This document shows, one piece after another, positions 29,218-33,420 of a DNA stretch of 64,000 nucleotides (positions within the stretch are counted from its first letter, which is position 1; each line of letters starts with the position of its first letter). The translations under genes and the position numbers were made by a program. The stretch lies in assembly GCA_902579585.1 (NCBI GenBank), contig CACHHJ010000002.1, forward strand, positions 1 through 64,000. The letters are read 5' to 3'. The notes below the pieces were generated by a model. The model ran no database searches. It saw only the letters and a list, made by a program, of their open reading frames with translations, and had not been told where the DNA came from. The DNA comes from an uncultured Pelagibacteraceae bacterium. GTDB taxonomy: Bacteria > Pseudomonadota > Alphaproteobacteria > Pelagibacterales > Pelagibacteraceae.

Positions 29218-30258
29218 CTATTTGTTGGAAGAGGAGATAAAATTCCATCTACAATCAAAACTTGGAATGAAAATTCCAGATAAATTTGTATTACCAAAGC
29301 TAGTTTCTAAAACTTTTGTCCAATTTTTAATTTGCTTTGGTTTTTTGTCCTGACATCCGACTTGAGCGGTTAGAGCTCCACCTTTTTTTAAAATTCTTTT
29401 TAAGCCTTTCATATTACGCTTTGCTAAATCTATGCAATATTGATCATCATTAAGATCTACAAATATATGATCATATTTAGAGTCCTCGATAGATTTGATG
29501 CTTTTAAATGCATCACCCCAATATGATTTTACTTTATTACTTTTTTTAATTCTTGATGTGATTTTAGGCAAATGCTTATAACTAAGTTCAACAACTTGTG
29601 GATCGAGTTCAAACCAATCAACAAAATTAAAATTATTTTGTAAACATTCTCTAACTACCCCACCGTCACCACCACCTATTACTGCTGCAATACCTTTTTT
29701 TTCACAAATACTGGTTCCAGATTTAACAAAAGTAGAACTATAAAGTTTTTCATCTTTTTCTGAAACTTGAAGCTCATCATCAATGAATAAAGCATTGCCA
29801 AACTCCTCGAGATTCAAAATCTCTAATTTTTGACCAACTTTTGAAACTAGTTTTTCCAAAATATCATTTACAACATAATATTTTTTTTGTCCTGGAGTGC
29901 TATAGATATCATCCTTTAAAGCAACACTACTTCTATCAAAATTATTAACAATTATTCTCTTATGATCTATTTCTTTTTTTAAAATATTTAAAGCTACTCG
30001 TGGTGAAATTTTACCACATGTAAAAAAGTCGAAGCTTACAACTCCTCTTTCTGGAAAAGTATGAAAACTCATATGACTTTCTGCTAATAAAGCTACAGAT
30101 GTGAAGCCTTGTGGTTCAAATTTGTGACTAGAAATTTTTAGCAATTCAACATTTGCTTTTTTTGAAATTTTGTAAAAAATCTTTTCGTAGAAATCGGGTG
30201 GATAATCTTTTTTTACCCCAAGAAAGTCTAGTGTGATATGCTCACCAACTTTTATCAT
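29218..30258 (-). CDS. speDE: SpeD-SpeE fusion: S-adenosylmethionine decarboxylase + aminopropyltransferase
   Basis: Single chain of 346 aa. Residues 1-110 are a class 1b AdoMet decarboxylase: LLAESHMSFHTFPERG with the processing site Glu60-Ser61 (pyruvoyl precursor), His66 and FDFFTCG Cys81, at the same spacing as Ser63/His68/Cys83 of the Thermotoga enzyme. Residues 125-346 are a spermidine synthase-like domain: IDDELQVSEKDEKLY, AAVIGGGDGGVVREC at 191-205, FELDPQVVEL, YWGDAF and DHIFVDLNDDQ. It should decarboxylate SAM and use the product to aminopropylate a polyamine, releasing MTA. The acceptor is not certain because some SpeE positions differ (DD for DG, YS for YH). The aldolase gene ends 7 bases upstream. 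Confidence 0.9.
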   Translation of the reverse strand: MIKVGEHITLDFLGVKKDYPPDFYEKIFYKISKKANVELLKISSHKFEPQGFTSVALLAESHMSFHTFPERGVVSFDFFTCGKISPRVALNILKKEIDHKRIIVNNFDRSSVALKDDIYSTPGQKKYYVVNDILEKLVSKVGQKLEILNLEEFGNALFIDDELQVSEKDEKLYSSTFVKSGTSICEKKGIAAVIGGGDGGVVRECLQNNFNFVDWFELDPQVVELSYKHLPKITSRIKKSNKVKSYWGDAFKSIKSIEDSKYDHIFVDLNDDQYCIDLAKRNMKGLKRILKKGGALTAQVGCQDKKPKQIKNWTKVLETSFGNTNLSGIFIPSFDCRWNFISSSNK

Positions 30259-30265
30259 TATAAAA

Positions 30266-30910
30266 TTAATCCTTTTTATAATTTTTCATCTTATCCAAAA
30301 CAATTTTCATTTCTCTTTTTGAAAGCAGTTTAGGTATTCCAATTCTTATTGCATTTATATATTGATGGCAAATATTTTCGACCTCTTGCGCAAGCTCAAA
30401 AGCATTATCTAAATTTTTTCCAAAAGTTATTTGACCGTGATTAGACATTAGACATGCTGATCTATTTTTAAGTGCTGATAAAATATTCTTTGATAAATTT
30501 CTTGTTCCAAAAGTAGCGTATTTAGCGCATTTTATGTCTTCTCCTCCGGCTACACCGACCATGTAATGAAAGGCAGGAATGTTTTTTTTATGTGTGGAAA
30601 CAGCCGTAGCACACGTAGAATGTGCATGCACTATAGCTTTAGCGTCAACTTTATTAACATAAATATCTTGGTGAAATCGCCATTCTGAAGACGGTTTTTG
30701 CTTTTTTTTGTCGAATCGACCTTTTAAGGAAACAAAAACAATATCTCTCGGTTTTAATACAGAATATTTAACTCCAGAAGGAGTAATATAAAAACCATTA
30801 ATATTTCCTTCATTTGCTCTTACGGAAATATTTCCTGATCTTAATGCAGACAAATTTGTTGTGTTCAATTTTTTTGCATATTTAATGACCTGTGCTCTAA
30901 GTTTTTTCAT
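30266..30910 (-). CDS. Class II aldolase, FucA-like; probable Ald2-type 5-methylthioribulose-1-phosphate aldolase
   Basis: Zinc-dependent class II aldolase/adducin-family protein of 214 aa. It carries the FucA-type catalytic Glu in PSSEWRFHQDIY, the zinc pair in AIVHAHSTCATAVS, the AFHYMVGVAGGEDI and YATFGTRNLS segments, and the third His in MSNHGQITFG. These segments are very close to E. coli fuculose-1-phosphate aldolase. Its position between mtnA (ATGA overlap) and speDE suggests the substrate is 5-methylthioribulose-1-phosphate, split to DHAP and a methylthio-aldehyde (DHAP shunt). An MtnB dehydratase is the alternative, but it would need mtnC/mtnD, which are not here. Confidence 0.78.
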   Translation of the reverse strand: MKKLRAQVIKYAKKLNTTNLSALRSGNISVRANEGNINGFYITPSGVKYSVLKPRDIVFVSLKGRFDKKKQKPSSEWRFHQDIYVNKVDAKAIVHAHSTCATAVSTHKKNIPAFHYMVGVAGGEDIKCAKYATFGTRNLSKNILSALKNRSACLMSNHGQITFGKNLDNAFELAQEVENICHQYINAIRIGIPKLLSKREMKIVLDKMKNYKKD

Positions 30911-31977
30911 TTAAATAAACCTTTTAAACCTTCTGAAGATGCTTCGCAGATGCCTTTTTCCGTTATCAGTCCCGTGACATACTTAGCAGGAGTAATATCA
31001 AATGCTAAATTCATAGCTTTACTTTTTTGGGGATAAATCAAAATTTTTGTTAATTTATTATTTTTATCTAAACCTTCTATAAAGGATAGTTCTTCTGAAT
31101 TTCTCTCCTCTATAGGAATATCTTTGAAATTTTTTAAATTCCAATCAATTGTTGAACTCGGTAGAGCAACATAAAAAGGAACTTTGTTATCATAAGCAGC
31201 TAAAGCTTTAAGATAAGTTCCAACCTTATTAGCTACATCTCCAGAGGCAAGAGTTCTATCTGTTCCTGTGATACACATGTCCACCTCTCCTCTTTGCATT
31301 AGAATTCCTCCAGTATTATCAGCAATAATAGTATTTGGTATTCCTTCTTCGTTAAGTTCGTAAGATGTTAAATTAGCTCCTTGATTTCTTGGCCTGGTTT
31401 CATCCACCCAAACATGGAGTTTAATTCCATTTTGGTGGGCATGATAAATTGGTGAAGTAGCAGTACCCCAATCAATAGTTGCAAGCCATCCTGCATTACA
31501 ATGTGTTAAAATGTTTATTGTATCTTTTTTCTTTTTATAAATTTTCTCAATTATTTTTAATCCGTTTAATCCAATATTTTTACAAAAACTTATATCTTCT
31601 TCACAGATAGCATGAGCTTCATTGATTGCAATTTTTAAAATTTCCTTACTATTAACCCCTGATAATTTTTTCATCATTCTATCAACTGCCCATTTTAAAT
31701 TTATTGCAGTTGGTCTCGATTTGATTAAGTCTTCACTAGCTTTTTTAAGAAATGACTGATCATTATTTTCAATTATGGATAACACTAAACCATAGGCGGC
31801 AGTAGCCCCAATTAATGGTGCACCTCTTACTTCCATTGTCTTAATTGCATTAATAGAGTCTTTAATATTTTTTAAATCTTTAATTATAAATTGATGAGGA
31901 AGTTTTGTTTGATCTATAATTTTAACAATATTATTCTCAAACCAAATTGTTCTAAATTCTTTTCCGTTTATGTGCAT
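30907..31977 (-). CDS. mtnA: 5-Methylthioribose-1-phosphate isomerase
   Basis: Converts MTR-1-P to MTRu-1-P. Hallmarks are MEVRGAPLIGATAAYG near residue 50, LTHCNAGWLATIDWGTAT with the catalytic Cys, WVDETRPRNQGANLT, and CITGTDRTLASGDVANKVGTY with the catalytic Asp. The track ORF extends into mtnP, but the ATG at 31977 (MHINGKEFRTIWF) gives the usual N-terminus and 356 aa, overlapping the mtnP stop by one base. It overlaps the aldolase gene by ATGA at its 3' end, so the MTA genes are tightly coupled. Confidence 0.94.
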   Translation of the reverse strand: MHINGKEFRTIWFENNIVKIIDQTKLPHQFIIKDLKNIKDSINAIKTMEVRGAPLIGATAAYGLVLSIIENNDQSFLKKASEDLIKSRPTAINLKWAVDRMMKKLSGVNSKEILKIAINEAHAICEEDISFCKNIGLNGLKIIEKIYKKKKDTINILTHCNAGWLATIDWGTATSPIYHAHQNGIKLHVWVDETRPRNQGANLTSYELNEEGIPNTIIADNTGGILMQRGEVDMCITGTDRTLASGDVANKVGTYLKALAAYDNKVPFYVALPSSTIDWNLKNFKDIPIEERNSEELSFIEGLDKNNKLTKILIYPQKSKAMNLAFDITPAKYVTGLITEKGICEASSEGLKGLFK

Positions 31978-32849
31978 TATTTTTTTAAAACTCTTCCAGC
32001 AATATACTCTAATTTCTTTATTGTTTTTTTTGTTCTTAATTTTGGATCCGTGATTATAGCGGTATCTAAACAATTGTTTGCAGGATCCTTATCAACTGCA
32101 AAATCTTTGAAAGTTTTAATAACTTCTTTAACCATATTTTGTGCATTCTCTGCATTCTTTTGAAGAGTTTTAATCACCATTGAAACATCAACTTCATCAT
32201 GTTCGGAATGCCAACAATCGTAATCGGTGACCATTGCAACTGTACAATATCTTATCTCGGCTTCTCTTGCTAATTTGGCTTCTGGCATATTTGTCATACC
32301 TATTACATCTGCACTCCATGATCTATATAAATTCGACTCTGCTAAAGTTGAAAACTGTGGTCCTTCCATAACAACATAAGTTCCTCCCATTTGATAATCA
32401 ATATTTAATTTTTTTAAAGCAGCTTCACAACACTCCCCCAAACCTTCGCTTGTAGGTTTTGCCATTGAAACATGAGCTACTATCTCTTCATCAAAAAATG
32501 TTTTGTCTCTGGAGAAAGTTCTATCAATAAACTGATCAACAATTACAAAAGTTCCAGGGCTCAGGTTTTCTTTTAAAGAACCAACTGCTGATACTGATAT
32601 TATGTCAGTGACACCTTGTTGTTTCATTGCATCAATATTTGCTCTAAAATTTATATTGGTTGGGCTTATTTTGTGACCTCTAGAATGTCGTGGAACAAAA
32701 CTTATATCATTTCCTTTAAACTTTGCTGTCATAATATCATCTGAGGGTTGTCCCCAGGAAGTTTTAACTTTTTTCCACTTAGTTTTTTGAAAACCTTCCA
32801 TGTTGTAAAGACCGCTTCCACCAATTATCCCAAGCTTTCTATTTTTCAT
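31977..32849 (-). CDS. mtnP: 5'-Methylthioadenosine phosphorylase
   Basis: Phosphorolytic cleavage of MTA to adenine and 5-methylthioribose-1-phosphate. The 290-aa protein has the MTAP/PNP class II motifs: GGSGLYNMEGF, the phosphate site FVPRHSRGHKISP, VSAVGSLKENLSPG, MEGPQFSTLAES and VIGMTNMPEAKLAREAEI, with VTDYDCWH favouring MTAP over purine nucleoside phosphorylase. It is the first gene of the minus-strand mtnP-mtnA-aldolase-speDE unit. Divergent apt starts 43 bases away and would reuse the adenine product. Confidence 0.94.
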   Translation of the reverse strand: MKNRKLGIIGGSGLYNMEGFQKTKWKKVKTSWGQPSDDIMTAKFKGNDISFVPRHSRGHKISPTNINFRANIDAMKQQGVTDIISVSAVGSLKENLSPGTFVIVDQFIDRTFSRDKTFFDEEIVAHVSMAKPTSEGLGECCEAALKKLNIDYQMGGTYVVMEGPQFSTLAESNLYRSWSADVIGMTNMPEAKLAREAEIRYCTVAMVTDYDCWHSEHDEVDVSMVIKTLQKNAENAQNMVKEVIKTFKDFAVDKDPANNCLDTAIITDPKLRTKKTIKKLEYIAGRVLKK

Positions 32850-32892: not shown

Positions 32893-33420
32893 ATGGATTT
32901 AAAAAAATATATTAGATCAATACCTGACTATCCCAAAAAAGGCATTTTATTTAGGGATATAACAACTTTAATAAAAAACCCTGAGGCCTTTAACTTTAGT
33001 GTTGATAAAATTATAGAAATATCAAAAAAAATAAAATTTGATAAAGTTGCGGCCATAGAATCTAGAGGTTTTATTTTTGCTGCTGTTGTCTCTTATAGGT
33101 TGAAAAAACCTCTTATAATGATGAGAAAAAAAAATAAATTACCTGCTGAGAGATACTCTGTCGATTTTGAATTAGAATATGGGAAGGCCACAATAGAGAT
33201 ACACAAAGATTCAATTAGTAAAGGTGATAATGTTTTAATTATAGATGATTTGATTGCCACTGGTGGTACAGCTGAAGCTGGTGCAAAATTAGTTGAGATC
33301 TCACAGGGAAAAGTTGCTGGTTTTATTTTTATTATAAATTTATTTGATCTAGGTGGTAACCAAAAATTAAAAGATAATTCTTATTTTACTGAAAGTTTAA
33401 TAGACTTCCCTGGTCACTAA
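32893..33420 (+). CDS. apt: Adenine phosphoribosyltransferase
   Basis: Salvages adenine to AMP with PRPP. The 175-aa protein begins MDLKKYIRSIPDYPKKGILFRDITTL, the standard Apt N-terminus. It has AIESRGFIFA, RKKNKLPAERYSVDFELEYG, and the PRPP loop VLIIDDLIATGGTAEAG. Its divergent placement next to mtnP fits disposal of the adenine released from MTA. The stop directly abuts the end of the convergent epimerase gene. Confidence 0.97.
   Translation: MDLKKYIRSIPDYPKKGILFRDITTLIKNPEAFNFSVDKIIEISKKIKFDKVAAIESRGFIFAAVVSYRLKKPLIMMRKKNKLPAERYSVDFELEYGKATIEIHKDSISKGDNVLIIDDLIATGGTAEAGAKLVEISQGKVAGFIFIINLFDLGGNQKLKDNSYFTESLIDFPGH

Follow-up and report, generated by a model that had tools for sequence, protein, structure and literature searches.

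Fusions of S-adenosylmethionine decarboxylase (AdoMetDC, SpeD) to an aminopropyltransferase (APT, SpeE) were reportedly first described by Green et al. in 2011 (Mol Microbiol 81:1109), with bacterial examples said to occur in Delftia, Syntrophus, Nocardia, and Chloroherpeton. Further AdoMetDC-APT fusions are found in a deltaproteobacterium and in Ca. Krumholzibacteria (PMC12803844). These other bacterial fusions resemble the enzyme considered here in domain order and in both activities, and independent fusion events are reported among them. Human spermine synthase, too, has been described as a bacterial AdoMetDC-APT fusion whose decarboxylase activity was lost (PMC12803844); like the present protein, it possesses an N-terminal AdoMetDC-like domain and an APT (structures 3c6k and 3c6m), but its SpeD-like domain is without decarboxylase activity and the two proteins share 18% identity.

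The fusions of Ca. Pelagibacter ubique HTCC1062 (WP_011282223) and Ca. Pelagibacter sp. HTCC7211 (WP_008544956) have been expressed in Escherichia coli, where they restored spermidine to a speD deletion strain, yielded spermine and thermospermine in speE- and speG-deleted strains, and produced norspermidine from diaminopropane (PMC11107197). Restoration of spermidine in the speD deletion shows that the SpeD domain of these orthologs works and makes decarboxylated SAM. For methylthioadenosine (MTA), a gene set constituting the MtnP-type dihydroxyacetone phosphate (DHAP) shunt has been described (PMC10986504 and PMC6302742). Such shunts operate in Rhodospirillum rubrum and Rhodopseudomonas palustris (MtnP variant) and in E. 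coli (MtnK variant); SAR11 has MtnP, MtnA, and a class II aldolase resembling FucA in common with them, and encodes these in one operon with the MTA-making enzyme.

The window analysed here, a 64,000-nucleotide stretch of DNA from an uncultured Pelagibacteraceae bacterium, contains a speDE open reading frame of 346 aa with an ATG start (Table 1). An earlier note had proposed that this frame encodes a single-chain SpeD-SpeE fusion, and this proves to be real: both halves and all Pfam matches lie in one reading frame, and the same fusion recurs at 80 loci. The N-terminal half matches AdoMet_dc (PF02675; residues 7-109, 89 bits against a cut-off of 25), and the C-terminal half matches Spermine_synt_N (PF17284; residues 119-167, 24 bits) and Spermine_synth (PF01564; residues 171-342, 78 bits), both above their curated cut-offs. 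The SpeD half also passes NCBIfam TIGR03330, the equivalog for Bacillus-type, class 1b AdoMetDC (94.6 bits against 75.65). The SpeE half falls under the speE equivalog cut-offs, scoring 98 bits against 250 for TIGR00417 and 115 bits against 260 for PRK00811, and is therefore a divergent aminopropyltransferase that is not filed as a SpeE equivalog. It nevertheless has the features of the SpeE fold, namely a tetramerisation domain and a Rossmann catalytic domain with GGGD and the catalytic Asp. A protein search of the source genome, which is 62% complete, yielded no second SpeD or SpeE copy.

Table 1. Features of speDE and its neighbouring genes in the window.
Feature	Coordinates	Strand	Assignment or basis
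speDE	29218..30258	-	class 1b AdoMetDC (aa 7-109) fused to aminopropyltransferase (aa 119-342)
Predicted beta chain, residues 1-60	30079..30258	-	self-cleavage after Glu60, predicted from class 1b AdoMetDC chemistry
Predicted alpha chain, residues 61-346: pyruvoyl from Ser61, then whole SpeE domain	29221..30078	-	prediction
Class II aldolase, L-fuculose-1-phosphate type; probable 5-methylthioribulose-1-P aldolase, Ald2-like	30266..30910	-	profile models, structure relatives
mtnA, methylthioribose-1-phosphate isomerase	30907..31977	-	TIGR00512, 412 bits vs cut-off 279
mtnP, methylthioadenosine phosphorylase, first operon gene	31977..32849	-	NF006492, 445 bits vs cut-off 437
apt, adenine phosphoribosyltransferase, divergent	32893..33420	+	TIGR01090, 206 bits vs cut-off 186

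Searches of solved structures by sequence returned none matching both halves of speDE; the halves separately matched SpeD entries (2iii, 1tlu, and 1vr7) and spermidine synthase entries (including 1iy9 and 6qmm). An AlphaFold2 model built with 34 family members reached a pLDDT of 77.6 and a pTM of 0.62, with a weak linker at residues 107-124 (pLDDT 50-60). The top PDB fold matches to this model were chains of human spermine synthase, with 3c6k as the best hit and both domains aligned at an rmsd of about 12 A; this large value suggests either that the domain arrangement differs or that the model does not determine the arrangement. For the SpeE part of the model, solved spermidine synthases superpose at about 3 A.

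The same fusion occupies one open frame at each of the 80 loci, which come from public genomes that are nearly all single-cell genomes and metagenome-assembled genomes; one of these loci is cut off by a contig end. The earlier suggestion to look for the fusion in other Pelagibacterales was answered in the affirmative, with a match in 132 of 148 Pelagibacteraceae genomes (72 of 81 among those at least 90% complete). The 80 independent loci and this distribution exclude the possibility that misassembly or a frameshift merely fused two separate genes. Within Pelagibacteraceae there is nearly always one full-length copy, at 58-97% identity, and the divergence of the SpeD half tracks that of the SpeE half (r = 0.965 over 90 unique sequences). 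Because the two halves diverge in step, the fusion has been inherited as one unit within the family. Thresholds that would miss distant fusions gave no match in 381 sampled alphaproteobacterial genomes outside the family (E 1e-40) or in 396 genomes of other Pseudomonadota (E 1e-30). In one Pelagibacteraceae genus, all five genomes (G005, G015, G022, G028, and G034) gave neither the fusion nor any aminopropyltransferase-family match, and cells of this genus may obtain polyamines by import or by some other route. At one further locus (G045:C5:97937-98284), adjoining the aldolase gene, only the SpeD half was matched (residues 1-116, in an open frame of 121 aa), possibly through truncation or a contig-end effect.

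The SpeD-SpeE protein of SAR11 is the normal Pelagibacteraceae enzyme, already published and assayed in orthologs. The window protein belongs to another genus-level group than HTCC1062 and HTCC7211, and shows about 73% identity to proteins encoded by two named Ca. P. ubique genomes (L019, L063). It is alike to the two assayed fusions in bacterial family, in N-SpeD(1b)-SpeE-C architecture, and in single copy, and on this basis is almost certainly orthologous to them.

Residue conservation was assessed in 101 aligned sequences, comprising the window protein and 100 loci, some of them near-duplicates. Residue numbering was confirmed for E60-S61, H66, and C81, and for the GGGDGG motif at 195-200. 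The SpeD processing and catalytic residues E60, S61, H66, and C81 are invariant throughout; together with the TIGR03330 score, this upholds the description of the N-terminal half as class 1b SpeD with these residues at the positions first given. Also invariant are D160, E170, Y173, S174, D198, G200, E217, D249, D268, N270, D271, and D272. Spermine-making APTs are reported to carry a signature of dcAdoMet-binding positions consisting of a motif-2 Asp, a Gly two residues on, and a motif-3 Glu (PMC11107197), and D198, G200, and E217 align to these. Position 161 holds D, N, H, S, or G, while the Tyr-Ser pair is fixed across all 101 sequences, at a site occupied by Tyr-His in the solved SpeE proteins of the alignment.

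In the operon, the aldolase gene lies 7 bp upstream of speDE and shares 4 bp with mtnA. For mtnA, the ORF list gives a TTG start at 32073, which falls inside mtnP; the likely start is the ATG at 31977, touching the mtnP stop. The order mtnP-mtnA-aldolase-speDE with divergent apt is conserved in the family. In loci whose flanks were long enough, the aldolase gene adjoins speDE in 75 of 78, with mtnA in 74 of 75, and both mtnP and apt in 69 of 73, counts in which the loci all come from one bacterial family and hence are not independent. The gap between aldolase and speDE measures 5-7 bp in 73 of 77 loci. The combination of the fusion with an MTA-disposal operon, which had been singled out from the one locus, is accordingly real and conserved.

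Identification of the third operon gene as MtnB was ruled out, with a TIGR03328 score of 64 bits where the cut-off is 137. Fuculose-1-phosphate aldolase models scored 186-203 bits, themselves below cut-off. Solved relatives include E. coli FucA (164 bits) and 6btd (128 bits), a Bacillus 5-deoxyribulose-1-P-type aldolase; in sequence, the gene product is closer to FucA. The family cut-off for MtnD was reached in 0 of 40 genomes, and canonical methionine salvage is therefore not complete. With a FucA-type rather than an MtnB-type third gene and with MtnD absent, MTA probably leaves via the DHAP shunt, and the aldolase would probably cleave methylthioribulose-1-P. By gene content, the clustered MtnP, MtnA, and FucA-like aldolase make up the MtnP variant of this shunt; a literature search found no DHAP shunt assay in SAR11.

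Taken with the ortholog assays, these observations suggest the following mechanism. The proenzyme would cut itself between Glu60 and Ser61, as members of its class do, and Ser61 would be converted into the pyruvoyl cofactor. With it, the SpeD domain would decarboxylate S-adenosylmethionine, as the orthologs have been shown to do. The earlier proposal that SpeE is carried on the alpha chain stands, in that this placement follows from the class if cleavage at Ser61 occurs as predicted. Channelling of decarboxylated SAM between SpeD and SpeE is a conjecture, and no test of it was found in the literature consulted. The SpeE domain, carried on that alpha chain, would pass aminopropyl groups first to putrescine, forming spermidine, and next to spermidine, forming spermine/thermospermine, and could also use 1,3-diaminopropane as an acceptor; both capacities have been shown for orthologs. 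MTA would be released at each aminopropyl transfer. Gene content and order suggest that MtnP, MtnA, and the fuculose-type aldolase probably convert it to adenine, dihydroxyacetone phosphate, and methylthioacetaldehyde, and that the divergent apt would recover the adenine as AMP. The window speDE is very probably the standard Pelagibacteraceae AdoMetDC-aminopropyltransferase fusion, working with an MTA-clearing operon in this manner.

The neighbours of speDE change by lineage. Six loci (L105, L114, L111, L075, L078, and L080) are without the FucA-type aldolase, and there a divergent bifunctional aldolase/short-chain dehydrogenase of 602-603 aa adjoins speDE; the copy at L105 scores 760 bits against a cut-off of 639 for NF006192. 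This protein is possibly a non-orthologous replacement of the FucA-type aldolase. In one genus, a gene for a 178-aa MTA/SAH-nucleosidase-like protein (L108:3769-4305 and L110:4238-4774) lies between apt and speDE, replacing mtnP-mtnA-aldolase. Beside an intact speDE at L109, an aldolase remnant (G036:C1:223934-224065) of 44 aa at 59% identity contains a TGA stop, a sign of recent loss.

The MTA-making enzyme thus stays linked with whatever disposes of MTA. The balance tips slightly towards a view of Pelagibacteraceae in which the fused enzyme shares a single genetic unit with whichever MTA-disposal module its lineage has—MtnP-MtnA-FucA-type aldolase, MtnP-MtnA with the aldolase-dehydrogenase, or an MTA nucleosidase—forming a self-contained module that makes polyamines, clears MTA, and recovers adenine and DHAP, with SAR11 MTA passing through the DHAP shunt. 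This conserved but modular context is the mildly new part of the analysis, although Green et al. 2011 may already note the mtn neighbourhood.

A different direction of catalysis has been put forward, in which SAR11 SpeE is reversed in the cell and strips aminopropyl groups from spermidine or norspermidine, making imported polyamines a nitrogen source. The proposal was based on how metabolites shifted in HTCC7211 when spermidine or norspermidine was supplied, but the same study notes that SpeE does not run backwards in other cells, and its results for HTCC1062 were unclear (PMC8437039). Reversal needs MTA as a substrate, yet speDE is co-operonic with MtnP and partners that remove MTA, and lineages without the FucA-type aldolase or mtnP/mtnA have another MTA-handling or aldolase gene beside speDE. 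As far as gene order can speak to it, conserved co-operonic removal of MTA points to synthesis and counts weakly against reversal, which is considered unlikely.

Within the synthesis direction, the identity of the acceptor has also been questioned. The earlier note read "DD for DG" and "YS for YH" in the SpeE domain as hints that putrescine might not be the acceptor, and a shift to, for example, agmatine or cadaverine only would agree with the scores below the speE equivalog cut-offs and with the family-fixed Tyr-Ser. However, the residue argument fails: position 161 is variable and was dismissed as a specificity signal, and the "YS" is invariant in the family. The idea of an acceptor other than putrescine is contradicted for orthologs, which make spermidine from E. 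coli putrescine and also use spermidine and diaminopropane (PMC11107197). Broadened specificity fits these data, and lost putrescine use, which does not, is judged very improbable; the suggestion of a different acceptor would be best restated as a broad acceptor range including putrescine. Least probable of all, and hardly to be entertained, is that the SpeD half has turned into an ornithine or arginine decarboxylase, such that the fusion makes its own diamine. Neofunctionalised SpeD homologs with these activities do exist (PMC10407285), but the SpeD half here passes the AdoMetDC equivalog, and an E. coli speD deletion regains spermidine when it expresses the Pelagibacter fusions.

SAR11 bacteria count among the ocean's most abundant cells, and polyamines are both taken up and made by them. 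As the enzyme is known and assayed, the finding mainly confirms the fusion in another SAR11 genus; its operon context bears on the direction of SpeE in SAR11 and on the handling of MTA by sulfur-limited SAR11 cells. Gene content suggests a DHAP shunt that would surrender or re-route the methylthio sulfur, and not canonical salvage. PLP-dependent ornithine/arginine-type decarboxylase homologs were found in 40 of 40 genomes, with two in the source genome, and one of each pair may be lysA.
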